NCBI GenBank assembly: GCA_018056705.1
Contig: JAGPFE010000023.1
Location: forward strand, 1 to 46,401
Direction of reading: 5' to 3'
From: Candidatus Hydrogenedentota bacterium
GTDB lineage: Bacteria; Hydrogenedentota; Hydrogenedentia; Hydrogenedentales; CAITNO01
Length of the DNA: 46,401 nt
The position numbers and the translations under genes were made by a program. The notes under the pieces are model-generated. The model searched no databases and had not been told where the DNA came from. It was given only the letters and a program-made list of their open reading frames with translations. This document shows, piece after piece, positions 32,016 to 46,401 of this stretch (the first letter of the stretch is position 1; each line of letters opens with the position of its first letter).

Positions 32016-34031
<2,016 letters not shown>

Positions 34032-34057: not shown

Positions 34058-37000
34058 TCACGGTTCCGGTTCGATGAACGCTTCGCTGGCGATGACGCGG
34101 GGGGCGTCTTCGGGCTGATTCTGACCGGCTTCGCCGGGCGCCTGCATCCGGTCCAGGCCGTACTCGAAGTACAAGAGTTTCAGGGCCTTCATGAAGTCTT
34201 CGTCGGACTGGTTGTGCCGGCGGAAGCCGTTCAACTGGCGATGGAGGGCGGCCGGCAGCGGCTTGATAAACGCCTCGTAGAGCGTGTCCGCGAACCGTCG
34301 CAGCTCCGGATCGTTCGTCTGGGCGGCGAAATCGCCCAGCCGTTTGAGCACGTACCGCTGGCCGGGGCGTAGCCGCTGCAGGCGGTTCTGCTGGTTCCGC
34401 CGCAGTTCGGCGTCCTCCCGGAAACGCCGGAGGATTTCCATGACCCGGGTGTTGTGCTGGCGGGGCAGCGATTCCCGCGGGGTGTCGGGGGCGCATCGCA
34501 ACCACGACAGGGCGGTTTCGATGTCCACGGGTTGCACTTCACCGCCGTCGCAACTGTAGAACTGCTGAAAGCCGTCGGACGCGCATAGGGCCAGGGCGTG
34601 GGGTCCCCGGCCCACGCGGCCGCACCGGATCCCATCCCGCAACTCGCAGATCCGCTGGTATTCCTCGGGGTCTTCCTGCCGCATCCGGCGGAAGAATTCT
34701 TCGGCCTCTACCAGGTCCATGATGGTTTCGTCGCCTTCTTCGGCGTCAGCGAGGACTTCCGACCGTTCGTCGTAGATGGCGTAGAGGGCGTCCTCGTTGA
34801 GGGCCTCGGTCTCCTCGAGGATCTGGGTATCCAGACCGATCACCTGGTGGATCTCGCTGATCCGCCTCCGGAGTTTTTCGGTCAGGCCCAGGTTTCGTTC
34901 GATGCCCGCTTCGGGCAGGAAGTTGAATCCCCAGATTTCGTCGTTTTCCGAACCGATGCGGTCAATGCGGCCGAACCGTTGAATCAGCCGGACCGGATTC
35001 CAGTGCAGGTCGTAATTGACAATCACGTCGCAGTCCTGCAGGTTGAGGCCTTCGGACATGACGTCGGTGGCCACGAGGATGTTGATTTCCTGATCGCGAT
35101 CGCGGGCCAGGGTCGTTTTCGCGTTGGCCTTGGGGGCGAAGCGGGCCGCGATCCGGGCCTGGTTGGCGCTCTGACCGGTGACCATGGCCACGTCGGGGCG
35201 ATGGCCGTCCGAGTTCAGCGCGTTGAACAGGTACGTTGCCGTATCGGCAAACTGCGTGAACACCAAAACCTTGCCGCTGGTTTTTGGAAAGTTGTTCCGC
35301 ATGCCTTCGAGGAAACGGTGGAGCTTGGCGTCCCTGGCAGGGATGATGGGATCCACCATCCGGTGGATTTCCTCCAGCACGGCGATATCGGACGCGACGT
35401 CTTCCCGCAGGCGGGGCAGGTCGAAGGCCTCAATTTTGTACGGCGATTTCTGCCGGAGGCCCTCCCAGTCCAACTCGCCGGCAGTATCCATTTCGTAGAA
35501 CTGCCGGGCGTCCAGGCCGGCTTCCCGGGCGAGTACCACGCCCCGGTCCAGCCCATCCAGAAACTGCCGGTTGGCCTCCAGCATCCGGCGGACCGATTCC
35601 CGGAAGGCCTGGACGCTCGATTCCAGCCGTTTGAACAGCAGGATGCGGATCAGGCCCCGCATGTTGCGACCGCCCCGACGCAGGTCCTCGTATACCTTCT
35701 TTTTCTGAAAGGATTCTTTCAGGTACAGGCCGAGCCCGAACCGGGCGTAGGTCATGGCGTGGCCGTCAACATCCTGATCGCCGTTGATCAGGGCCCGCAG
35801 CCGGTCGTAAAAGCCGGCGTAGGTGGCGTCGATGTTATAGGATAGGGTGGAAAGCCGCCGCCTGGGGAATCCCTGGCGTCTGCCGCTGACCATCACGAAC
35901 GCGTGGCGTTCGCCCCGCAGGTAGGGCGCGGCCTGGGCGTCGTCCAGGTCGCGCAGGCGTTGGCCCGTGTCGTCGGCGATGCCGTACCACCGCAGGATAT
36001 GCCGGCGGGTGCGCCGGACCAGCACCATTTTCAGCAGGGCGGGCAGGGATTTCTGTCCGTTCTCCACCTGCCGGAAGTAGGCCCGCAGGTCGGCCGGCAG
36101 GATGGGCAGGGAGATTTCCTGCTCCCCCTGGAACAGCCGCAACTGGTAATACACGTCCCATGGGCTCTTGTTCTGGGGCGTGGCGGTCAGCATGCACAGC
36201 AGGGGCCGCCGTTTGTGGATGAACGCTTCCAGTTCCTCGTACTGCTGGGTGTTGGGATACCGGAAGTGATGGCTTTCGTCGAGCAGGATGAAATCGCATT
36301 CGGCGTACCGGGGGTCTTCCAGAATACCCGCCGCGCCGCGCAACTGGCCGGTGGACAGCACCCGCGCGTTGAGGTCAAACTGGTGCGCGTATTCCGTCCA
36401 CATGTCCACAAGGGGCGCGGGACACAGAATCAGGACGCGACGCCCCTCGGCGCGGCGGAAATGCCGCGCGATGGCCGCCCCGATGTAACTCTTGCCGAGG
36501 CCCACCACATCGGCGATGAACACGCCACCGTGTTCGCGGATGATCTGAATGCCCCGTTCGACGGCGTCCTTCTGGAACTCGGTCAACTGTTCGAGCACGG
36601 TATCTTCGAGCAGCAGGTCACGGCCTCCGCCCTCGTCGTCCAGCCGGTCCCGCACGAGGGTCAGCAACACCTTCATGTAGACGTCCCACGGCGTGGCGGG
36701 ATACAGGGCCCAGGATCGGTCCAGTTCCTCCCGGAGTTCCTCCTGCAGGGGAACGGCCTGCTGCCACAGGCTTTCAAACCACGCCTTGAGCTGGGCGTGG
36801 TTGTCGTTGCCGTGGACGGCGACGTTGAGTTCGGTGTTTCCCGAAAGCCCGCCCAGCGTGAGGTTGCTGGAACCGACGATGCCCATGCCGCGCTCGAACC
36901 GCCCGTCCTCCGCGTAATCGAACACGTACGCCTTGGCGTGCAGGCGGCCCAGGCCGTACATCCGGGCCTCCAGCCGCCCCGACGCGGCCAGTTCCCGCAA

Positions 37001-37366
37001 CTGCTTCAGGGCGGATTCGGCCGGGTCGTTCTGTTCCGCCCGGGCGAGGATCTCGGCGATCCGTTCCGCCGTTTCCCGGGCGAGTTGCCGCTGTTCGGTC
37101 ACGTTGCGGTAGCGGCGTTTCCGGTCCTGCCGGGCGGCCAGGTCCAGGTCATGATGCTGTTCTATCAGTTGTTCCAGCGTCTCCCGGTCGGTGCCGTTGC
37201 CCAGCAGCAGCCGCAGTCGCCGCAGCCGGCCAAGATCCTCGACCAGGGGCGCGAGACCCGAAAAGTAGGTGTAGCCCACGGCCCAGTCCGCCGACACGGA
37301 GAATCGCAGGGCCTGCCGCACCGCGTCCAGCAGTGTCACGTTGACGTTGTCGATGATGTCCGCCAT
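34058..37366 (-). CDS. PLD-nuclease/SNF2-type helicase fusion
   Basis: 1102 residues. Residues ~1-200 are a phospholipase-D-like domain with one HKD motif, RLHAKAYVFD (H143, K145, D150), followed by GIVGSSNLTLGG; one HKD per chain implies a dimeric nuclease. Residues ~260-850 are an SF2/SNF2 translocase: Q-motif-like FQKDAVERGIQII, Walker A ADVVGLGKSYIGAA, DESH box LLDESHHFR, TATPQNKSPWDVYYQL, VFTQFADTATYLF, ATDVMSEGLNLQDC and QRFGRIDRIGS. The final ~250 residues are helical with no recognised domain. This architecture is typical of phage-defence and restriction loci (compare DrmD-like proteins). It is the last gene of the cassette and is preceded by a 277-bp gap. Role inferred: DNA translocation with cleavage of unmodified DNA. 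Confidence 0.9.
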   Translation of the reverse strand: MADIIDNVNVTLLDAVRQALRFSVSADWAVGYTYFSGLAPLVEDLGRLRRLRLLLGNGTDRETLEQLIEQHHDLDLAARQDRKRRYRNVTEQRQLARETAERIAEILARAEQNDPAESALKQLRELAASGRLEARMYGLGRLHAKAYVFDYAEDGRFERGMGIVGSSNLTLGGLSGNTELNVAVHGNDNHAQLKAWFESLWQQAVPLQEELREELDRSWALYPATPWDVYMKVLLTLVRDRLDDEGGGRDLLLEDTVLEQLTEFQKDAVERGIQIIREHGGVFIADVVGLGKSYIGAAIARHFRRAEGRRVLILCPAPLVDMWTEYAHQFDLNARVLSTGQLRGAAGILEDPRYAECDFILLDESHHFRYPNTQQYEELEAFIHKRRPLLCMLTATPQNKSPWDVYYQLRLFQGEQEISLPILPADLRAYFRQVENGQKSLPALLKMVLVRRTRRHILRWYGIADDTGQRLRDLDDAQAAPYLRGERHAFVMVSGRRQGFPRRRLSTLSYNIDATYAGFYDRLRALINGDQDVDGHAMTYARFGLGLYLKESFQKKKVYEDLRRGGRNMRGLIRILLFKRLESSVQAFRESVRRMLEANRQFLDGLDRGVVLAREAGLDARQFYEMDTAGELDWEGLRQKSPYKIEAFDLPRLREDVASDIAVLEEIHRMVDPIIPARDAKLHRFLEGMRNNFPKTSGKVLVFTQFADTATYLFNALNSDGHRPDVAMVTGQSANQARIAARFAPKANAKTTLARDRDQEINILVATDVMSEGLNLQDCDVIVNYDLHWNPVRLIQRFGRIDRIGSENDEIWGFNFLPEAGIERNLGLTEKLRRRISEIHQVIGLDTQILEETEALNEDALYAIYDERSEVLADAEEGDETIMDLVEAEEFFRRMRQEDPEEYQRICELRDGIRCGRVGRGPHALALCASDGFQQFYSCDGGEVQPVDIETALSWLRCAPDTPRESLPRQHNTRVMEILRRFREDAELRRNQQNRLQRLRPGQRYVLKRLGDFAAQTNDPELRRFADTLYEAFIKPLPAALHRQLNGFRRHNQSDEDFMKALKLLYFEYGLDRMQAPGEAGQNQPEDAPRVIASEAFIEPEP

Positions 37367-37391
37367 TTTCCGTTACTTTCCGGCTTATGCC

Positions 37392-37413
37392 GTCGACGGG
37401 GCACCCGGTCGAC
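37392..37413. promoter_or_regulatory. Hairpin/operator-like inverted repeat before the helicase gene
   Basis: Two 10-nt arms, GTCGACGGGG and CCCGGTCGAC, separated by CA, pair at 9 of 10 positions. It lies 25 bp upstream of the helicase start, in the only sizeable gap (277 bp) of the cassette. It could be an operator, an attenuator or an RNA hairpin affecting helicase expression; no promoter is obvious in the gap. Confidence 0.4.
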
Positions 37414-37643
37414 CCTGATCACTCCTTCGCGGAGGTCACGGTTCCGACCCGGAACGCGTCCCCTGTACCAGGGCCGTAAGGTCCCCCGACAACACCGGCT
37501 GCCGACGCGGGCCCCCGACGCGCGGGATCCGGGACCAGCTGACCTGCTCCCTTGACCCCCTGTCCCGAAGTCCAAACTTACATCGCATTGCGTATCCAGC
37601 TCCGATCATATGGCCAGCCTGGTTCAGTCAGGCCCCCCTGTAT

Positions 37644-40600
37644 TCATAGTCCGTATAACCCCGCCACCACATCATCCAGTTCACGCTCCAGGGATACCCG
37701 TGCTCCAGGCGTCCCTTTCAGAATCCTGTTTACCAGTCCTTCCACGCGCTTGCGCTGCGCTTCCGTGGCTTCAGGAATTGGCAACTCCTCCATGGTGGGC
37801 TTCTGGAGTTGCAACGCCCCCGTGTTCAGAATTTTACAGCAGACTTTGAGATATTCCCAGCATGGCGTACTGTTCAGTATTCCAAGTAGGAAGAGATCCC
37901 TGCCTTCAATCATGAAGCACTTGTTATTCAGCACATATTCACCTGAAGGATCCAAAGCGAATTTACTAGATCGACAGATTTCCTGATAGACAATTTTAGG
38001 CAGTTTCAGTTGATGTAATTTTTGTGTGGAGCCCGTCTGAAGTTCATACCATGGATATTGACCATGCGCGACTTGTTCCAGTTTTTTCTGGAATCTCATC
38101 AGGTATTCATGCACCGCGGGATACTGTTCGATATCCGTGCCACGAACTGTACAGATCAGCCATTTATCCGCAAAAACCGGACGCCAGCGCCCCACGTCTT
38201 TTCCCCGTAATAATGGCAAAATAATTTTTTGTGACTCAGGATCCTGTTTAATTAATTCCTTCCGCGTATCACCGTCGATCACAAAAGCCTCATTAAGGCC
38301 GGTTACAAATCCACGATGAATCTTTCCTTTAGCGTATTCGCCCAGAGGGATGCTTTTTTTCTTTTTGAGAATAGTGAACCTGGAATCCCCGATCACCCAT
38401 GTGCTCTGGGTCAATTGATCGCTCGTAAGGGAAATCCGGTGGCGCCTGACAATTTCAGCAAGATCATCCTGGTCGGTAATCTCCCGGTTATAGTTCATTC
38501 CAAACGCGTTTGAATCCAGAAATCCCGAGCCATCTCGAGACGCAACCAGAATGGCAGGACTGATATTGGCGCCCTGAAAAATTTGGGAATTTTCCAGGTT
38601 CAGCAATTGATGTATCGCGCAGGAAGATTGCAGATATTCACGCAATTTTCGAGCGGATTCTGTCTTAAGCCAAGAATTGGAAGTAATAAACACCATTACC
38701 CCCCCCGTTTTAAGCAGTTCAACGGCCCGTACCAGGAAGTAATGCAATAAATCTCCCCTTCCATGGTAAATTACCGGAAATACTTTCTTCAGGTCATTTT
38801 TGTACTCGTGGGGGATTTCCTCCTGGCGGACATAGGGAGGATTGGCGAGGATGATGTCGAAGCCCCCTTCGTCGAGGACGTCGCAGAACTGGACATCCCA
38901 GGCGAAGACGGGTTTGCCGTCCTTCCGGGTGAGGCCCAGGATCTCCTCCTGCTGCTGCAGGATGTTCGCGATCTGCCGGCTGACCTGCTGGATGCCGGTT
39001 TCGTAGTCTTTCTTCATTTTTCCGGCGGCCTCGAAGTGCTTATTGATGAGGTCGCGGCGTTTCCTGATAAGCGGGCGCAGGAGGCCATCCCGGATCAGGT
39101 CGCCCTGAACACCATGGAAAGCGGGGCCGATGAGGCTGTCGCCGGTTTCGACGCGGTAATCGAGGTTGGGCAGGGGCTTCGGTTCCTTGTCCTGGTAGTC
39201 CACGGCGAGGGACAGCCACAGCCGCAGCCGGGCGATGTTGACGGCGAAGTCCTCCAGGTCCACGCCGAACAGGTTGTTCCGGATGATATCCAGCTTGTCC
39301 TGGTACCGGGTGGCCTGGCGGGACTGGGCATTAAACAGGGCCTCCTGCAGGTCAAGCAGTTCGTGCAGCATGCCGAGGAGATAGGCCCCGGATCCGCAGG
39401 CGGGATCGCACACCCGGACCTGCTCGAGGGCCCTGAGCACCTTTTTGGAATCCCCAAGGTCGCGCGCGTCCCGGTCCTCCACGAACCGTTCGAGGGCCCG
39501 GGGATCCTCGTCCGGGCAGGCCCGCCCCAGGTACGCCTTGAGGGCTTCATGGCACATGTACCGGACGACGTTCTGGGGCGTGTAATAGGCCCCCTTCTCG
39601 TGGCGGTTCACCACCAGCCGCTCGAAGAGTTTCCCGAGCATTTCTGGATCTACCGCCACGTCCTGGTCGAAGGGTGTGGACTCGGTGACCGTAAAGTTAT
39701 ACCGGGCGAACAGGTCGTTGAGGATGGCCCCGATCGGCGCGTCGGGGACCTGGAGGTTTTTGACCCGGTCATACGGGGCCGGTTCAAACAGGCCGCCGTT
39801 CAGGAAGGGCGCGTCGCCGATGACCTCCCGGAGCCTGGCATTCCAGGCCGGATCCCGCCTGTCCGCGCGCAGGGCCTCGAAAAACAGTTTTTCCAGGCGG
39901 TCCCGGTAAAAGTTGGATGCCCCGTCCCGCGTTTCCTGGTAGTCCTTCCACAGCCGCTGAAAATAATCGGGCGTGGCGGCTTCTTTCGTGCCCGCGGGGT
40001 ACTGCAGCCAGCCCTTGTGGGCGACGAAGGTAAGGAACAGCAGGCGGTTGCATACCTGCTGGCAGAACAGCGTCTTCTCGGCTTCGTCCCTGAAGTTGCC
40101 GGAGACGGCGGCAAACAGGTCCCTGAACCGTCGGCTGAAGTCGGAGTAGAAAGCCTTGTCCAGGGTGGCAACGTCGAAGGCGACCCGCAGGCGCTCGGCA
40201 ATGTCGGTCCGGGAGAGATTCGCGCCGCCCTCGGCAACGCGGAGACCAAGCAGTCGTTCCACCGGCGTGCGCAGGGGCTGGTTTTTCGATTCGATCCGGA
40301 ACCGGCGGAAGATCCACCGGTTACCTGACCGTTGCGGATGAACCAGATGCCAGCGGGAGCCGTCGGGGTTCGTGACCAGGAAAAGGAAAAAGTCCGTCGG
40401 CCGGTTCTTCAGGATTGCCTCGAGCACGGGCCGCTGGTGTTTGAGCAGGAGCTCTGGATCCTTCAGCCGCACCACCACGGCCCAGAACGCGCCGGCGACC
40501 TGGGTGATCACCTTCGGCTGTTCACGGTTGTACAGCAGCGTGGCCGGCGAGTCCGGTTTGCGCCCCCCCCTGGACGTGACCTTATCGCGGGACACGTCGG

Positions 40601-41153
40601 CCAGGGGAAGGATCATTTCCCTGTTCTCGTAGCCGAGGGTATGGACCATCAATTGGAAGGCCCGATCGAAGGGCGTGCCTGCCGCCGGGTCCAGCAGCCG
40701 GCGGAGAGCCGCCTCGAGCCCCTGGCAGTCCGCGATCCGGTTCCGGCGTTCCCAGTCCCCGTCGGAATGGTCTCCCGCGTCCAGGGTACGCCCATGAAAA
40801 CAGCGCGCCTGGGGATCGCCGTTCTCGAAGTACCGGACCTGGTCCAGCGTGTACGTGACACACCACTGGTGCAGCGCGCGGGCCACCTCACTGGCCAGTT
40901 CCGCCACGCGCTGCCGGTAGGCATTGAACGCCGCATCGTCCGCGCTCGAGTCAATCACGTCCGCGTCTTCAGAGATCAACTGCCCGTTCGGGTCTTTCCA
41001 CCAGCCGGTAACCTGCTGGGACGTGCTGCCACCAAACCATGCCGTGAATTGCTGGTTGACCCTGTTGAACCACTTTTTCCTTTCCTGGGGAGGAATAGGG
41101 TTGCCGCATCCGCACTTGCTGGGTATGGTGAGGGTCACGTTGTGATTCAGCAT
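37644..41153 (-). CDS. Eco57I-like adenine-specific DNA methyltransferase with extra N-terminal module
   Basis: 1169 residues. Residues 1-~110 are an added module with a Cys-rich start (SKCGCGNPIPP) and WFGGSTSQQVTGWWKDPNGQ. A long helical region follows (to ~540). The methyltransferase core has motif I VCDPACGSGAYLLGML (~585) and the N6-adenine motif IV FDIILANPPYV (~770). Residues ~850-1150 form a target-recognition domain of the TaqI/Eco57I type, ending IPEATEAQRKRVEGLVNRI. No clear PD-(D/E)xK nuclease motif is visible, so cleavage probably depends on the PLD-helicase encoded next. GGAGG precedes the ATG. The DNA of the recognition domain is markedly richer in A/T than the rest of the gene. 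Substrate DNA site unknown. Confidence 0.9.
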   Translation of the reverse strand: MLNHNVTLTIPSKCGCGNPIPPQERKKWFNRVNQQFTAWFGGSTSQQVTGWWKDPNGQLISEDADVIDSSADDAAFNAYRQRVAELASEVARALHQWCVTYTLDQVRYFENGDPQARCFHGRTLDAGDHSDGDWERRNRIADCQGLEAALRRLLDPAAGTPFDRAFQLMVHTLGYENREMILPLADVSRDKVTSRGGRKPDSPATLLYNREQPKVITQVAGAFWAVVVRLKDPELLLKHQRPVLEAILKNRPTDFFLFLVTNPDGSRWHLVHPQRSGNRWIFRRFRIESKNQPLRTPVERLLGLRVAEGGANLSRTDIAERLRVAFDVATLDKAFYSDFSRRFRDLFAAVSGNFRDEAEKTLFCQQVCNRLLFLTFVAHKGWLQYPAGTKEAATPDYFQRLWKDYQETRDGASNFYRDRLEKLFFEALRADRRDPAWNARLREVIGDAPFLNGGLFEPAPYDRVKNLQVPDAPIGAILNDLFARYNFTVTESTPFDQDVAVDPEMLGKLFERLVVNRHEKGAYYTPQNVVRYMCHEALKAYLGRACPDEDPRALERFVEDRDARDLGDSKKVLRALEQVRVCDPACGSGAYLLGMLHELLDLQEALFNAQSRQATRYQDKLDIIRNNLFGVDLEDFAVNIARLRLWLSLAVDYQDKEPKPLPNLDYRVETGDSLIGPAFHGVQGDLIRDGLLRPLIRKRRDLINKHFEAAGKMKKDYETGIQQVSRQIANILQQQEEILGLTRKDGKPVFAWDVQFCDVLDEGGFDIILANPPYVRQEEIPHEYKNDLKKVFPVIYHGRGDLLHYFLVRAVELLKTGGVMVFITSNSWLKTESARKLREYLQSSCAIHQLLNLENSQIFQGANISPAILVASRDGSGFLDSNAFGMNYNREITDQDDLAEIVRRHRISLTSDQLTQSTWVIGDSRFTILKKKKSIPLGEYAKGKIHRGFVTGLNEAFVIDGDTRKELIKQDPESQKIILPLLRGKDVGRWRPVFADKWLICTVRGTDIEQYPAVHEYLMRFQKKLEQVAHGQYPWYELQTGSTQKLHQLKLPKIVYQEICRSSKFALDPSGEYVLNNKCFMIEGRDLFLLGILNSTPCWEYLKVCCKILNTGALQLQKPTMEELPIPEATEAQRKRVEGLVNRILKGTPGARVSLERELDDVVAGLYGL

Positions 41154-41171
41154 GGCCTATCCTCCACGGTA

Positions 41172-41846
41172 TTATTCTGCCTTGTTGCGTTCCGGGCGAG
41201 CAAGAGGGCGAAACCATCCAAATCGTTCCCGATCGCTGTCAAAGTCCAGTCCATCGTACTCGCCGCCAATGTACATCACCTCGGCGCCTTCCAGCGCGTC
41301 CACCGCCCACCATCCCCGAACCAGGTTCGCGGGAGAATAATCCGGTGTGGCATCGGACAGGTAGAACCCGCGATAGCGACGCGCGATCAGCCCCGCGCAC
41401 AGGGCGGGATCCACGCAAACCGGTATGGCCCGGAACCACGTGCCAGCCAGCAGGGCATCGGTGGAAAACGAGTCCGCCATGACCAGTTCCTCGGACATGT
41501 ACAGGGATCCGCAGATGGCATGACGCAGATCGGTGCGAAGCATGGCCCGATACCCCGGGTAACGGGCGGCAGCCTGGTCACACGCCTCCCGGGTCAAGCC
41601 CGTGGCCTGGAAAAAAGCCTCGGGCGACGCATCCAGCGTCAGGCCATGGGGTCTCAGGAAATCCCTGTCAAACGCGTCGAAAAGGTTGATCTCTTCGATG
41701 CAGGGATAAAACTGCTCGGGCGGCGCCCAGCGATCCCCGAACGCGAGGGCCATGGGCAGATTTAACATGGTCAAGCCAGGCAGGTAGGGATTCGGACGGG
41801 TCAGCCCGTATTCTTCGACGGGGAAATTCATGATGACGCTGTACAT
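41172..41846 (-). CDS. Cassette protein B2, unknown family, paralogue of the product at 44066-44701
   Basis: 224 residues, soluble, no membrane segment, no domain I recognise. It shares with B1 a common order of motifs: YLPGLTMLNLPM (B1: FIPGMTLVSLPM), TGLTREA (B1: LGVTREK), IPVCVDPALC (B1: IPYCADPAVC) and FYLSDATPDYS (B1: FLVADREPDFS). The two are therefore paralogues within one operon; B2 has a longer middle segment. The start is fixed by AAGGAG 8 nt before ATG 41846, giving MYSVIMNFPVEE. It begins 2 bp after the A2 gene and ends 18 bp before the methyltransferase gene. Conserved Cys residues in the shared motif could bind metal. Possibly a partner subunit of the ATPase/VWA pair; function unknown. 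Confidence 0.8.
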   Translation of the reverse strand: MYSVIMNFPVEEYGLTRPNPYLPGLTMLNLPMALAFGDRWAPPEQFYPCIEEINLFDAFDRDFLRPHGLTLDASPEAFFQATGLTREACDQAAARYPGYRAMLRTDLRHAICGSLYMSEELVMADSFSTDALLAGTWFRAIPVCVDPALCAGLIARRYRGFYLSDATPDYSPANLVRGWWAVDALEGAEVMYIGGEYDGLDFDSDRERFGWFRPLARPERNKAE

Positions 41847-41848
41847 GG

Positions 41849-42436
41849 TTACGCTCCTTTTCCGCCGGCATCCCCCGATCCGGCCTGGTCCACGTTGAAC
41901 GCGCGTTCCAGCAGGTTCTTCCACGTGACGAAACGATCTCTGGCCTCCCGACAAAACACGTCCCCAACGTGCCGGTAATAATTACAGATCACCGCGACGC
42001 CGATGTGATCAGCAAGGCTCCCATGCCGGATGACCCACGCGTGGTGGAAGTCCATGTGACTGCAACGAAAAGGACGGGGTACCGCTCGAGGAGTCATGAC
42101 CCGCTGTACGGTACCACTCAGCACATCCAGCACGGCATGCCCAAGCATCAGTCGTCCGCGCGTAACCATGTACAGGGCCATCGGAAAGGCATCATACTCC
42201 CAGTTCCGCCGCAGGGCTTCCACCAGTACGGCCTCGGCTTCGGCATCCGGGCCTTGCCGCAACCGGTACAGCGCGTCAATCAATCCAGGAGCCAGGTCGG
42301 CTTCCTGCCTGGGCAAAGCATTCAAGTCGGACCGCATGGAACCCGTGGACTGTCGTGGCGCGTCCCCCGGGGTTTTTGGCGCTGGCACGCCGTTCCTGGC
42401 GCGTCGTCGGGAAGTGGGGCGTTTTGCTGGATTCAT
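41849..42436 (-). CDS. Cassette protein A2, resembling the C-terminal domain of the MoxR-type ATPase
   Basis: 195 residues. The first ~45 are basic, Pro/Ala-rich and probably disordered; the rest is helical. Its region EAEAVLVEALRRNW...FPMALYMVTRGRLMLGHAVLDVL aligns in order and spacing with the ATPase C-terminus (EIDAALLYFLRKTP...LALYMACRKRLSLSPRVLDAM), and the similarity continues through FRCSHMDFHHA/FKCAYRNASMY to ICNYYRHV/YTIIKKHNI. I infer that it is a stand-alone duplicate of that domain. Start ATG 42436 has GGAGGAG 10 nt upstream; the upstream in-frame codons to 42463 are not needed. It lies between the VWA and B2 genes with tight spacing. Function unknown, perhaps a substitute or capping subunit of the ATPase assembly. 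Confidence 0.75.
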   Translation of the reverse strand: MNPAKRPTSRRRARNGVPAPKTPGDAPRQSTGSMRSDLNALPRQEADLAPGLIDALYRLRQGPDAEAEAVLVEALRRNWEYDAFPMALYMVTRGRLMLGHAVLDVLSGTVQRVMTPRAVPRPFRCSHMDFHHAWVIRHGSLADHIGVAVICNYYRHVGDVFCREARDRFVTWKNLLERAFNVDQAGSGDAGGKGA

Positions 42437-42472
42437 CCTGGGTTTTCTCCTCCAAACGCGCATTCGCGCACG

Positions 42473-44035
42473 CTAACGCAGGAAAGTGGGCAGCTTTGTA
42501 ATCGATTTTGCGTATTCGATATTTGTAATGTACGTTAAGGCAAAATGAAGCCCGGTACCCGTATCCTGAAAGGCCTTAAGATTTTCCGGAGTAGCGAAAA
42601 AGCCGTCCGTCACCACGAGCACATTCCGGGGACGACGCGTGGCTGGCATTTTGATCACGTGGTCCAGCACACAGTCCAGGTCTGTTCCCCACGTGGTACG
42701 GATATGGCCCTTCCGCAGGTTCTCGCTGGTTACGGGGAATACCTCATTGCTGAACAGAAATACCCGAACCCGTCCCATTCTGACCAGGTCCGCGAAAATC
42801 CTGACCAGCCATGGCAAATCCGACGACATGGATCCACTGACGTCAAGATAGACATGACAGGCCATCGGATCCCTCCAGCGGGGCCCGTGGACCTCTTGTT
42901 CGTGCTGGCATAGCAGGGGCTGGGTGTTCCATAATAAGCGACGGGCCCAGTACGTTCGGTCTTTAGTGGAGAACCGCGGCTCGAGAGTCCTTTGGGTGTA
43001 CGCTTCGTTAACCATCACCCTGGAGCAGTAGACGGGCTGGTAAACCCCCAGTTTCACGCACAGTTGTTTCAACACCTTCAAGGCCTCGAGCCGCGGGTTT
43101 TGCATCGGAACTTCGGAATCAAACACGCCTTGGTTCCGTCCGGCAATCGACGGAAACCGCTCCTTCACCCACTCTTCCATGTCAGCGGTCAGTTTCTGCA
43201 GCAATGGGTTCTGGCTGGTTTCCCATTGTGTATCCTGTATCGTGAGATGGGGGGAGTCATGGTCTGTTTCCTCCTCCTGAGCATGATCGGGAGTGAGCAC
43301 CTGGTGCGAACCGAGTAGCATCGGTGAAGAGCACAATCCGTTCTGCTTGAGGAATTCGATAATGTCATTTACGGTCGCGGTTTTTTTGTCGTACAGTTTT
43401 TTGTACAGTGCTATCCCCCTCCTGGCCATTACCGGTCCCAATTGGTCCTCCAGTTTTCGATATAGCCCTGCCAGGGGGGGACACTCAATGTCCCAGGAAT
43501 ATCCGTCTCCTGTCCATTGCGGTGGGGGGGTCAGAAGAAAGTGTGGATAATCAGGATCGGGATACAATTTCCGGAACAGGCTGAGGTAGCGCGGTTCCGG
43601 AAACATATGGGCAATCCGCGCGTTGATGACCGCGTCAAACGCGATGTTCTTCAACAAGTCCGGCGCACCAAACAGGGTATTGTGGCCATATCGAATGTGA
43701 TGCAGCTCATGCAGGAGAACCACCAGCAGCCACTCATCCCGAAGACAAAACTTTTTATAGAAATCGGGATTTATCAGTAGTTCCGGATATACCTCCGCCG
43801 TGATTGCCGCGGATTGCACGGTGTCAGAAAACCGGATTTTCGAGCAGGACAGCAGGTCTTCCAGGAACATGGCATGCCATGGCAGTACCCGGAAAAGGCG
43901 TTGTTGCAGATCCTCTTCTGGAGACAGGCGCTGTCCTGCTCGCGTGGACAGTTGCTTCAGAAGATCCTGAAGCACTTTCTGGGTTCCCGGTTTAAAACTG
44001 GATTTAAGAGTAGCCCCACTCGTAGACATGACCAT
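42473..44035 (-). CDS. Metallopeptidase-like plus VWA-like protein (DUF2201 architecture)
   Basis: 520 residues. The N-terminal half holds HELHHIRYGH at 109-118, an HExxH zinc-protease motif with a third His, as in the putative metallopeptidase domain that precedes VWA-like domains. The C-terminal ~150 residues form a VWA domain with full MIDAS: DVSGSMS (near 398), the Thr in TTWGTDLD and VVTDGFF. Between them is a Gln/His/Asp-rich linker (DHAQEEETDHDSPH). VWA proteins of this type are standard partners of MoxR AAA+ ATPases and may present substrates to them. AAAGGA precedes the ATG; ATG 44029 is an alternative. It is flanked by B1 (30 bp) and A2 (36 bp) genes. Whether the peptidase is active is unknown. 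Confidence 0.87.
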   Translation of the reverse strand: MVMSTSGATLKSSFKPGTQKVLQDLLKQLSTRAGQRLSPEEDLQQRLFRVLPWHAMFLEDLLSCSKIRFSDTVQSAAITAEVYPELLINPDFYKKFCLRDEWLLVVLLHELHHIRYGHNTLFGAPDLLKNIAFDAVINARIAHMFPEPRYLSLFRKLYPDPDYPHFLLTPPPQWTGDGYSWDIECPPLAGLYRKLEDQLGPVMARRGIALYKKLYDKKTATVNDIIEFLKQNGLCSSPMLLGSHQVLTPDHAQEEETDHDSPHLTIQDTQWETSQNPLLQKLTADMEEWVKERFPSIAGRNQGVFDSEVPMQNPRLEALKVLKQLCVKLGVYQPVYCSRVMVNEAYTQRTLEPRFSTKDRTYWARRLLWNTQPLLCQHEQEVHGPRWRDPMACHVYLDVSGSMSSDLPWLVRIFADLVRMGRVRVFLFSNEVFPVTSENLRKGHIRTTWGTDLDCVLDHVIKMPATRRPRNVLVVTDGFFATPENLKAFQDTGTGLHFALTYITNIEYAKSITKLPTFLR

Positions 44036-44065
44036 GATGTCCTTTCTACATGTCGTTGCAAGTCC

Positions 44066-44701
44066 TCAGACCTGGTTCTTTTCTACCGGAATCTCCAAGC
44101 TAAGGGTTGGAATGTGGCGCATGTCATCGACCAGCACGCTGCGCCAAAGGGTGCTAAAACTGAAATCAGGTTCCCGATCCGCCACTAGAAACATCCCGTG
44201 AGCTCGCGACAGGATCGCTATGCAAACCGCGGGATCCGCACAATAGGGAATCTTCGAAATTGAAAGTCGACCATGGAGCAGCAGTTGATCCAGTTTGACG
44301 GGAGCGGCAAGGCGGAAACCTCGCTGCAGGGAAAACACCTCAATGGCCTTTTCACGGGTTACACCTAACTGGTGGAGCATCTCGTCGGGATCATCCTGTT
44401 CAAATCCTCGGTGGTCCATTGGATTGAGACACCAGAAGCGTTGCAGCGCCTCGGAATCAAGCCCCCCATCCGGTTTACGCCGGAAGTCTGTCAGAAAGTG
44501 CTGAAACTCCTGCTGCGTGACCTGCTTGAGATTGAACAGCATCGGCAGGCTGACCAGGGTCATTCCGGGGATAAAACAGATTTGGGAGCGCACGGTACGT
44601 TCTGAATGTGATCCAGTGCCCCCTCCCCACCGTCTGTAACACATACACATATTGAGCGCATTCGGATTGACCGCCGCGTTTTTTTTGTGGGGATAAAACA
44701 T
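44066..44701 (-). CDS. Cassette protein B1, unknown family, paralogue of the product at 41172-41846
   Basis: 211 residues, soluble, no recognised domain. It shares with B2 the N-terminal FIPGMTLVSLPM, the central LGVTREK and the C-terminal IPYCADPAVC and FLVADREPDFS motifs. The first ~45 residues differ from B2 and are Cys/Gly/Arg-rich (NMCMCYRRWGGG). The start is ATG 44701, which overlaps the ATPase stop codon (TGATG) and has AAGGAGA 7 nt upstream; translation is thus coupled to the ATPase. Base composition is less GC-rich than B2, so the paralogues are old or have different recent histories. Position suggests a subunit acting with the ATPase; function unknown. Confidence 0.8.
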   Translation of the reverse strand: MFYPHKKNAAVNPNALNMCMCYRRWGGGTGSHSERTVRSQICFIPGMTLVSLPMLFNLKQVTQQEFQHFLTDFRRKPDGGLDSEALQRFWCLNPMDHRGFEQDDPDEMLHQLGVTREKAIEVFSLQRGFRLAAPVKLDQLLLHGRLSISKIPYCADPAVCIAILSRAHGMFLVADREPDFSFSTLWRSVLVDDMRHIPTLSLEIPVEKNQV

Positions 44702-46335
44702 CACGAAATCTCCTTCTGTTGAATATTGTTCGGCATCGTATCCATAAACACGCCGTTGAACTCATATGCATATTTTCTATAATTCATTGCCATATTCATT
44801 GCATTTGAATCATTTATATTATGTTTTTTTATTATAGTATATATAATAATGAATAAACTGTGCGCATCTTCATAATGTGCGTACATGCTGGCGTTCCTGT
44901 ATGCGCACTTAAAACTTTCATCGTTAAACCGGACCATGGGCTTAAAGAGAAATTCCAGAATTTGTCCCATGGCATCCAGAACCCGGGGGCTTAAAGACAA
45001 CCGTTTCCGACACGCCATGTAGAGAGCCAGCGTGGCAACAGGCAACTCATCCTTAGGGGTTTTTCTTAGAAAGTACAGCAGTGCGGCATCGATCTCTTCA
45101 TGTTTCTCTGTCTGGGCCAGCACGAGTGCCGCCTTGGCACGCTCAAGCGGATCGCTGATGCGCCGCAAGTTGTAAATAGGCATCACGTGCTTTTCCATGG
45201 TCTCTTTCCACGCGTGCATGTGAATGACCTGGAGTTTCGCGAAATCGAGGTCCAGTCCGCAGGCCAGCTGGGGAAGGCTGTTTTCCAGGGCCATCAAACC
45301 AGTAACGCCAAGCAGGTCGGACGACACCTCCAGGTTCGCCTCCTCGGCCATCGCCTGCAACGCCGCCATCAGGGCCCGGATGTTGTTTTTGAGAATCAGG
45401 ATCCGGCGAATGGATACCTTAAATGGCGTTTGGTTCTTCTCGTCGGGAACGGAGAAGCTTGAAATTACATTCATTAGATATTCAGAAATATTTGCATTTA
45501 CACCATGGTTTTTCGCGTACAGTTCCCGACCCCGATCAAGCACGCGGCGCAACACTTCGGCAGGCATGGTCGGCTCGGCCTCGGCTCCACCTTGAATCAG
45601 CACGCGGCGGATGTCGTCGTTCATGTCCGACCAGTCGGGCACCCGGACGATGAAATGAAACCGATCCGCCAGCGCGTGATCCAGCGGCATGGCCCCGAAA
45701 TAACCGGATTCAGAGACGGTACCGTCATCGATCGTAACCGGATTCATGGCCGCCCAGCGGTAACGTAGTAACGGCAATTCAATGCCCTGCACCCGGCGTT
45801 CGTGGACAATCGGGAAAATCTTGTTCTGCAGTTCGGGACGGGTGCGATTAATCTCGTCAAAAAAGACGGCCTGTGCCTGCCAGATCGACGACGGCGTGGG
45901 GATGTACATTAACTCCCTGTTGTCTTCCGTGGGTACAGGCACGCCAACCAGGTCGTCGTAATTCAGCAGGCTGGCATTGTAAAACCGGCATTCGAGTCCG
46001 AGAACCTTGGCCAGGCGTTCAAAGAAGTAGGTTTTAGCGGTACCGTGCGTGCCGATGAGCAGCAATGGACCTTCCGTGATCAGGGAGGCGATGATAACCG
46101 GCTCAATTCGGTACCATCCATGCACGCCGAGGACACCCGACAACAGGGAAGATTTCCACAAGGATTTGAACAGGTCCTGCTGGGCGTCAGCGATTGTATT
46201 CAGGCAGGCATTCGGTGATTTTTTTCCTCTCCGCGCCGGTTTCGCCTGCTGGCCCTTACCCCGATTAGAGGAATCTGTTGCTTCGGGCGACGCGGCTTCC
46301 GGATGGTCGACGACTGCCTGCGCAAGTTCTTCCAT
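44701..46335 (-). CDS. MoxR-type AAA+ ATPase with additional C-terminal domain
   Basis: 544 residues. Residues 1-45 are a charged, basic, probably disordered leader. The AAA+ module (~50-290) has Walker A IGTHGTAKT (~94-102), Walker B AVFFDEINR (~156-164), the MoxR hallmark RPELQNKIFPIVHERRVQG, and sensor region WAAMNPVT. After a helical lid the C-terminal ~135 residues form domain A, which resembles the separate A2 protein. MoxR ATPases remodel proteins or complexes together with VWA partners, and a VWA gene lies two genes on. The start is ATG 46335, which has GGAGGT at 7 nt; that sequence itself lies within the alternative start codon context at 46350. The 66 bp to the window edge show no clear promoter, so more genes may lie upstream. 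Confidence 0.9.
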   Translation of the reverse strand: MEELAQAVVDHPEAASPEATDSSNRGKGQQAKPARRGKKSPNACLNTIADAQQDLFKSLWKSSLLSGVLGVHGWYRIEPVIIASLITEGPLLLIGTHGTAKTYFFERLAKVLGLECRFYNASLLNYDDLVGVPVPTEDNRELMYIPTPSSIWQAQAVFFDEINRTRPELQNKIFPIVHERRVQGIELPLLRYRWAAMNPVTIDDGTVSESGYFGAMPLDHALADRFHFIVRVPDWSDMNDDIRRVLIQGGAEAEPTMPAEVLRRVLDRGRELYAKNHGVNANISEYLMNVISSFSVPDEKNQTPFKVSIRRILILKNNIRALMAALQAMAEEANLEVSSDLLGVTGLMALENSLPQLACGLDLDFAKLQVIHMHAWKETMEKHVMPIYNLRRISDPLERAKAALVLAQTEKHEEIDAALLYFLRKTPKDELPVATLALYMACRKRLSLSPRVLDAMGQILEFLFKPMVRFNDESFKCAYRNASMYAHYEDAHSLFIIIYTIIKKHNINDSNAMNMAMNYRKYAYEFNGVFMDTMPNNIQQKEIS

Positions 46336-46401
46336 GCTGATGACCTCCATGGTTGGTTGGTTGAAAGGACCGGACTGGCCAACGCTGATGGCCTGCCCGG
46401 G

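Follow-up and report, generated by a model that had tools for sequence, protein, structure and literature searches.

The seven genes of the locus

We analysed a stretch of 46,401 bp (hereafter the window), which is an entire contig of a metagenome-assembled genome (MAG) and whose nearest named relatives are Candidatus Hydrogenedentota. Its positions 34058-46350 hold seven consecutive open reading frames (ORFs) on the minus strand, encoding an ATPase, B1, a VWA/metallopeptidase protein, A2, B2, a methylase and a helicase; the sequence 5' of the ATPase lies beyond the contig edge. An earlier description made from the letters alone (the sequence-only reading) had proposed this cassette as a candidate defence system, and the ORFs and domains bear out its seven same-strand genes and their order. 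Its claim that the genes mostly overlap or lie within 40 bp holds for the first five junctions (an overlap of 4 bp between ATPase and B1, then gaps of 30, 9, 2 and 18 bp), but not for the last, where methylase and helicase are 277 bp apart, compared with 19-86 bp in four relatives. Pfam recognises AAA_5/AAA_3 in the ATPase, VWA_CoxE below the cut-off in the VWA protein, Eco57I and TaqI_C in the methylase, and PLDc_2 and Helicase_C in the helicase, whereas nothing in Pfam matches B1, A2 or B2. PADLOC matches just two of the seven proteins, the methylase and the helicase.

The methylase (37644..41153, minus strand, 1169 aa) is an Eco57I-type N6-adenine DNA methyltransferase (Eco57I 128 bits, TaqI_C 32 bits). 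Its DPACGSG and NPPY motifs are present in 5/5 sequences, and those of its sequence relatives whose structures are solved, including BseCI, TaqI and BrxX, are adenine methylases. The PADLOC type IIG model scores 324 bits on this protein, and Pfam shows no nuclease domain in the chain. The helicase (34058..37366, minus strand, 1102 aa) joins a PLD nuclease, at about 36752-37084, to an SNF2-type helicase. PLDc_2 (47 bits) and Helicase_C (66 bits) are both above their cut-offs, and SNF2-rel_dom (23.6 bits) is just below its own (24.9). Its PADLOC scores include 219 bits for C3a139 'HKD+Snf2', 128 bits for DrmD and a lower 78.5 bits for a DrmA model. H143, K145, GSSN at 165-168, E179, VGLGKS and DESH are invariant in the five aligned sequences.

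The other three conserved genes form a MoxR-B-VWA module. The first encodes a MoxR/RavA-like AAA+ ATPase (44701..46350, minus strand, 549 aa), which ends in a helical C-terminal domain, A1 (about 44704-45195, minus strand). Structures were predicted for the ATPase and for B as single proteins rather than complexes. The ATPase model matches the fold of RavA, with matching rows mainly in residues 58-383 and the A domain hardly covered. The VWA protein (42473..44035, minus strand, 520 aa) combines an HExxH metallopeptidase-like part with a VWA domain carrying a metal-ion-dependent adhesion site (MIDAS). The HExxH site (H109, E110, H113), the MIDAS and a TDG motif are kept in 11/11 aligned sequences. 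In the window, VWA_CoxE reaches 23.4 bits, under the Pfam cut-off of 26.4, and DUF2201_N is unmatched; many wider relatives have both DUF2201_N (PF13203) and VWA_CoxE. The VWA profile found no relatives in the PDB at E 0.1. The locus thus pairs a MoxR-class ATPase with a partner VWA/MIDAS protein. Going by the alignments, catalytic motifs are retained in the four enzyme-like parts.

B1 (44066..44704, minus strand, 212 aa) is the third component of the module, with homologues between ATPase and VWA at the loci L002, L003, L004, L074 and L075. We claim no fold for B, since its model has a pLDDT (predicted local distance difference test) of 66 and the best PDB match has E 4.4. A profile found B at 8 of 38 MoxR-VWA loci of other phyla. 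Comparison with hhalign relates B to the gene in the middle of the module in Verrucomicrobia and other phyla (probability 94%); the middle gene of Chloroflexi gave a probability of 6%, and we do not claim kinship with it.

A five-gene unit recurs in Hydrogenedentota

The sequence-only reading had suggested checking whether the order of all seven genes is conserved. The recurring unit comprises five genes, ATPase-B-VWA-methylase-helicase, and A2-B2 are an addition of this locus. The order VWA-methylase-helicase occurs in five genomes from three genera, with ATPase and B present in four of the five. The fifth locus (L076, genome G013) is cut by the contig edge: its contig starts inside the VWA gene and continues with methylase and helicase. 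A scan of genome contigs yielded 41 loci and found the full five-gene order in three (L002, L003 and L004), all from Hydrogenedentota; G016, G009 and G014 were taken as their genomes, and each was counted once. In G014 the contig end cuts the helicase, and the rest of the helicase matches another contig. Helicase identity is 49-78% across the cassettes and 49-68% to the helicase of the window, and the gene content of the flanks varies from locus to locus.

In a search of 68 genomes from the phylum, the VWA profile matched 15 at E <= 0.001, and seven loci in six genomes at E <= 1e-100, which we call the VWA subfamily. The helicase was found at E <= 1e-100 in 6/68 genomes, and in five of these it stands beside the VWA gene, so that a helicase adjoins the subfamily in 5/6 genomes. 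The hypergeometric probability of this co-occurrence is 3.4e-6 for the 68 genomes and 9.7e-4 within the family of 17, values that overstate independence because the cut-offs were picked after the scores were seen and the genomes are related.

Could the neighbourhood be an accident or an assembly artefact? Draft assemblies, three of which are named MAGs, are the source of the cassette loci; in addition, the VWA subfamily lacks the helicase in one genome, and in another the helicase lacks the VWA subfamily. This explanation is contradicted by recurrence: five genomes share the order at the helicase divergence given above, within differing flanks, and other database entries hold near-identical VWA (P0001, 98%) and ATPase (P0137, 98%) proteins. 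We therefore consider an accident highly improbable. Because VWA, methylase and helicase keep their order in four other genomes, the adjacency of these genes is more than chance, which supports the sequence-only reading on this point. In the L003 cassette, about 1.1 kb separate the VWA gene from the methylase gene (L003:11446-12539), a gap with an ORF that repeats one peptide (L072:13157-13675).

The methylase exchanged its core and kept its N-terminal domain

The methylase begins with a DUF3574-like domain (40806..41153, minus strand), which in the window matches DUF3574 only weakly, at 15.7 bits against a cut-off of 25. In a tblastn search with the L004 domain, the plasmid relatives mostly carry a DUF3574 annotation. 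A search for this domain in the 68 phylum genomes gave five strong matches, one in each of the five cassettes, and four weak ones outside cassettes (E 5.8e-16 to 1.5e-5). Its profile matched none of six helicase-linked plasmid methylases.

The cassettes fall into two groups, and L004 sides with one or the other depending on the part compared. Its methylase core (columns 500-800) has 58-61% identity to the window and L002, against 41-42% to L003 and L076, and the C-terminus behaves likewise (39% against 18-20%). The N-terminal domain (first 122 columns) shows the opposite: 69% to L076 and 56% to L003, against 31-36% to the window and L002. So do the helicase (78% to L076 and 69% to L003, against 51-52%), the VWA protein (45% to L003, against 31-37%) and the ATPase (54% to L003, against 38-40%). 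By these identities, the methylase core and the C-terminus, which includes the TaqI-like specificity region, were swapped, whereas the N-terminal domain remained with its helicase clade. That this domain was kept despite the swap argues for a methylase coupled to its partners, and the pattern is the strongest internal evidence for coupling. We infer that the N-terminal domain is a docking part. L003 carries the other methylase subtype.

A predicted gate on a restriction-modification-type pair

A methylase and a PLD-SNF2 motor make a restriction-modification (RM)-type pair. We propose that the five-gene cassette is an RM-type defence, and judge the chances of this proposal to be about even. From what is known of the families, the methylase would modify host DNA as self, and the helicase-nuclease would cut DNA that lacks the mark. 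The AAA+/VWA ring would gate the cutting by remodelling the methylase-nuclease complex, deciding when it occurs, probably via the methylase N-terminal domain. The gate could work by activation or by alleviation, and the HExxH site may act as a protease.

RavA has ViaA as partner, and CbbQ has CbbO. Gating by a MoxR ring is predicted by analogy with RavA-ViaA, NorQ-NorD and CbbQ-CbbO, and with the control of type I enzymes by ClpXP. Among MoxR-VWA pairs, both NorQ-NorD and the CbbQ rubisco activases have a client enzyme as their target. PMC4231737 describes that ClpXP removes translocating HsdR, a precedent for the control of translocating motors by an AAA+ protease, and that the EcoKI motor without control kills its host. 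Translocating restriction motors thus endanger their owner, and the cassette's own AAA+/VWA/metallopeptidase machine would make this control testable in one operon.

In a bolder version, the DUF3574-like head of the methylase would be the docking site of the MoxR-B-VWA/HExxH machine, which would free, remodel or destroy the PLD-SNF2 motor. The RM system would then have a built-in AAA+ metalloprotease gate, performing within a single operon the task that ClpXP carries out on type I enzymes as an outside protease. Since the machine would also serve paralogues of S-adenosylmethionine (S-AdoMet, or SAM) synthetase in other phyla, it would control SAM-dependent enzymes in general. We hold this version only tentatively, as rather doubtful.

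Each half also occurs alone

Several observations weigh against a gated RM-type defence. At the 38 MoxR-VWA loci of other phyla (L005-L042), of which 27 extend at least 7 kb downstream, neither a methylase nor a strong helicase match was found; L035 and L036 gave weak helicase matches (E 2e-4). Within the phylum, L074 (G010) and L075, a second locus of G009, have ATPase-B-VWA without methylase or helicase in the available sequence, the contig stopping directly after the module in L075 and about 3.2 kb further on in L074. Conversely, G046 has a helicase with no VWA gene in the 19.9 kb examined. Since each half occurs alone, neither requires the other. In addition, columns 122-500 of the L004 methylase side with neither group clearly (37-45% identity to all). 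Finally, in a PADLOC search of the flanks of L005-L030 (85 flank ORFs, 65 families), none of the 25 families listed has more than two ORFs; the families include Dnd, Pbe, mad2, mad3 and a type II methylase. By this count, made without a baseline, the MoxR-B-VWA module is not visibly tied to defence islands. The sequence-only reading noted that MoxR ATPases pair with VWA proteins in conflict systems. The pairing is indeed present, but alone it is no defence marker, as it stands elsewhere apart from methylase and helicase.

Two of these loci have neighbours of their own. In L074, the next ORF after ATPase-B-VWA (L074:2168-3163) encodes 331 aa with no match in Pfam. In G046, the PLD-SNF2 helicase (L091:9564-14366, 46% identity) adjoins a 467-aa sigma-70-like gene, not a methylase.

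The helicase half has a wide distribution on plasmids, with relatives in 597 plasmid records. Of the seven such loci that we examined, all but L090 carry an annotated methylase close to the helicase, as a direct neighbour in three cases and at a distance of one to three genes in the other three; MoxR and VWA matches are absent from all seven. This independence of the halves fits an explanation in two layers, in which methylase and PLD-SNF2 helicase are a full restriction pair and MoxR-B-VWA is an independent backup that kills or stalls the cell, co-inherited without contact. PMC7159879 and PMC12839542 also propose MoxR-vWA systems with peptidase parts as conflict systems. However, all five cassettes share the methylase N-terminal domain, which was inherited along with helicase and VWA, and the flanks of the module elsewhere hold few PADLOC matches. 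We regard two independent layers as unlikely.

The other common partner of the MoxR-B-VWA module is a divergent S-AdoMet synthetase, found downstream of the VWA gene at 28 of the 38 loci of other phyla. Its untrimmed ORF starts before the VWA stop in 26 of the 28 and at most 60 bp after it in two. The ten loci without it are nine from Chloroflexi and L039. All ten genomes searched among the 28 also hold a higher-scoring synthetase. Examples are L007:11365-12519 and L015:2869-4026. The GHPD, DNGLSGKK and GGGA stretches of the divergent synthetase are conserved in the six sequences aligned. Near one MoxR-VWA-synthetase operon there is a second DUF2201 metallopeptidase/VWA gene (L005:1732-2892). 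We found no description of S-AdoMet synthetase together with MoxR and VWA in the open-licence PubMed Central (PMC) literature.

This partnership suggests that MoxR-B-VWA might serve SAM metabolism or SAM-dependent enzymes, as an activase for the synthetase elsewhere and for the adenine methylase here; the cassette would then set methylation, with restriction secondary. The position of the synthetase at the VWA downstream end, the presence of another synthetase in the genomes searched, and the action of NorQ-NorD and CbbQ on client enzymes are in line with this idea. Against it stand the ten loci that lack a synthetase and the nuclease-helicase that follows the methylase in all five methylase loci, with PLD and motor motifs kept in the five aligned proteins. 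It is the less probable of these two alternatives, and we think it improbable. A gated RM-type defence, for its part, offers a role for the widespread MoxR-B-VWA module, for which we found no function in the open-licence PMC literature.

Comparison with described systems

Our best reading of the cassette is an RM-type defence with a predicted MoxR-VWA-metallopeptidase gate, a new variant and not a member of a named system. The sequence-only reading knew of no named system combining both halves, and here too the open-licence PMC literature yielded no description of MoxR-B-VWA with a methylase and a PLD-SNF2 helicase.

The closest described logic is that of the DUF499-centred BREX-related (BR) type 2 systems, which PMC12839542 proposes as RM-like, with an N-terminal HKD nuclease on a Swi2/Snf2 motor, a part of them having been reported as Hma. 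They share with the cassette an AAA+ ATPase, an N6-adenine methylase, an HKD(PLD)-Swi2/Snf2 helicase and RM-like logic. In contrast, the AAA+ protein of the cassette belongs to the MoxR/RavA type and is accompanied by protein B and a VWA-metallopeptidase. The seven proteins have no match to DUF499 (PF04465) and none to DUF3780 at E 0.1, in a contig that ends just upstream of the ATPase. Two other contigs of the window's MAG, G000 (C16 and C44), hold one DUF499 match each, possible BREX-related systems, and the window contig (C2) has none.

Class 1 DISARM shares an adenine methylase (PADLOC DrmMI, 126 bits) and an SNF2 helicase (the DrmD match), but in the cassette the PLD is fused to the helicase. 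The sequence-only reading had rightly reported the hallmark DrmB as missing: its domain PF09369, which appears as MZB in the profile set and whose older name we take to be DUF1998, has no match in the 94%-complete assembly, while control matches were found in 8/14 genomes. Nor is DrmB among the best 25 PADLOC matches listed for methylase and helicase. BREX-1 PglX scores 108 bits on the methylase (NCBI cut-off 500) and the MADS methylase MAD2 35.8 bits (cut-off 720); a search covering the seven cassette proteins gave no NCBIfam match to PglZ or BrxC. We did not adopt DISARM, BREX, BR type 2 or MADS, as their defining parts failed.

The plasmid PLD-SNF2 proteins (e.g. Rhodococcus pR8C1, Pelobacter pPRO1 and Anabaena pANACY.05) have the same architecture at 28-34% identity and a methylase nearby; three such methylases typed by Pfam were Eco57I-type in two cases and MmeI-type in one. 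Plasmid pairs differ in lacking MoxR/VWA (7/7) and the DUF3574-like methylase N-terminus (6/6). The MoxR-vWA ternary conflict systems, with VMAP, FtsH or iSTAND parts (PMC7159879 and PMC12839542), share with the cassette a MoxR AAA+ protein and a peptidase-like part in the vWA protein, whereas the module described here joins a methylase and a helicase, and elsewhere S-AdoMet synthetase. A VMAP part was not recognised, B having no Pfam match; VMAP-M5 scores 13.3 bits on the VWA protein (cut-off 27), and VMAP parts diverge fast. RavA-ViaA, NorQ-NorD and CbbQ-CbbO share the MoxR and VWA pairing and the RavA fold match, but in the cassette the VWA shares its chain with an HExxH domain, and its gene accompanies a restriction-like pair.

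The extra A2-B2 pair and the surroundings

The sequence-only reading described two duplicated subunits, A and B. The kinships hold: B2 matches B1 (BLASTP E=5e-9; 65.9 bits with a profile built without window sequences), and A2 matches the ATPase C-terminus (BLASTP E=1e-5; 21.8 bits with such a profile). A1 is not a separate gene, because what A2 matches is the C-terminal part of the ATPase. A2 (41849..42463, minus strand, 204 aa) is hence an extra stand-alone copy of this domain, and no second such copy beside a VWA gene was found at the other loci scanned. B2 (41172..41846, minus strand, 225 aa from an ATG start, with a longer TTG start possible at 41954) is an extra copy of B. The pair was seen in the window locus only, and L003 carries two B genes without A2. 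In the window species, a second A-B pair would supply the ring with an alternative or extra adaptor.

No RNA elements were found at Rfam gathering scores. A scan of viral contigs with six exact peptide patterns, which detects close relatives only, returned no helicase relative that would indicate carriage by phages. Next to the cassette and convergent with it lies a plus-strand ORF (32016-34031), which by eye we take to encode UvrB.

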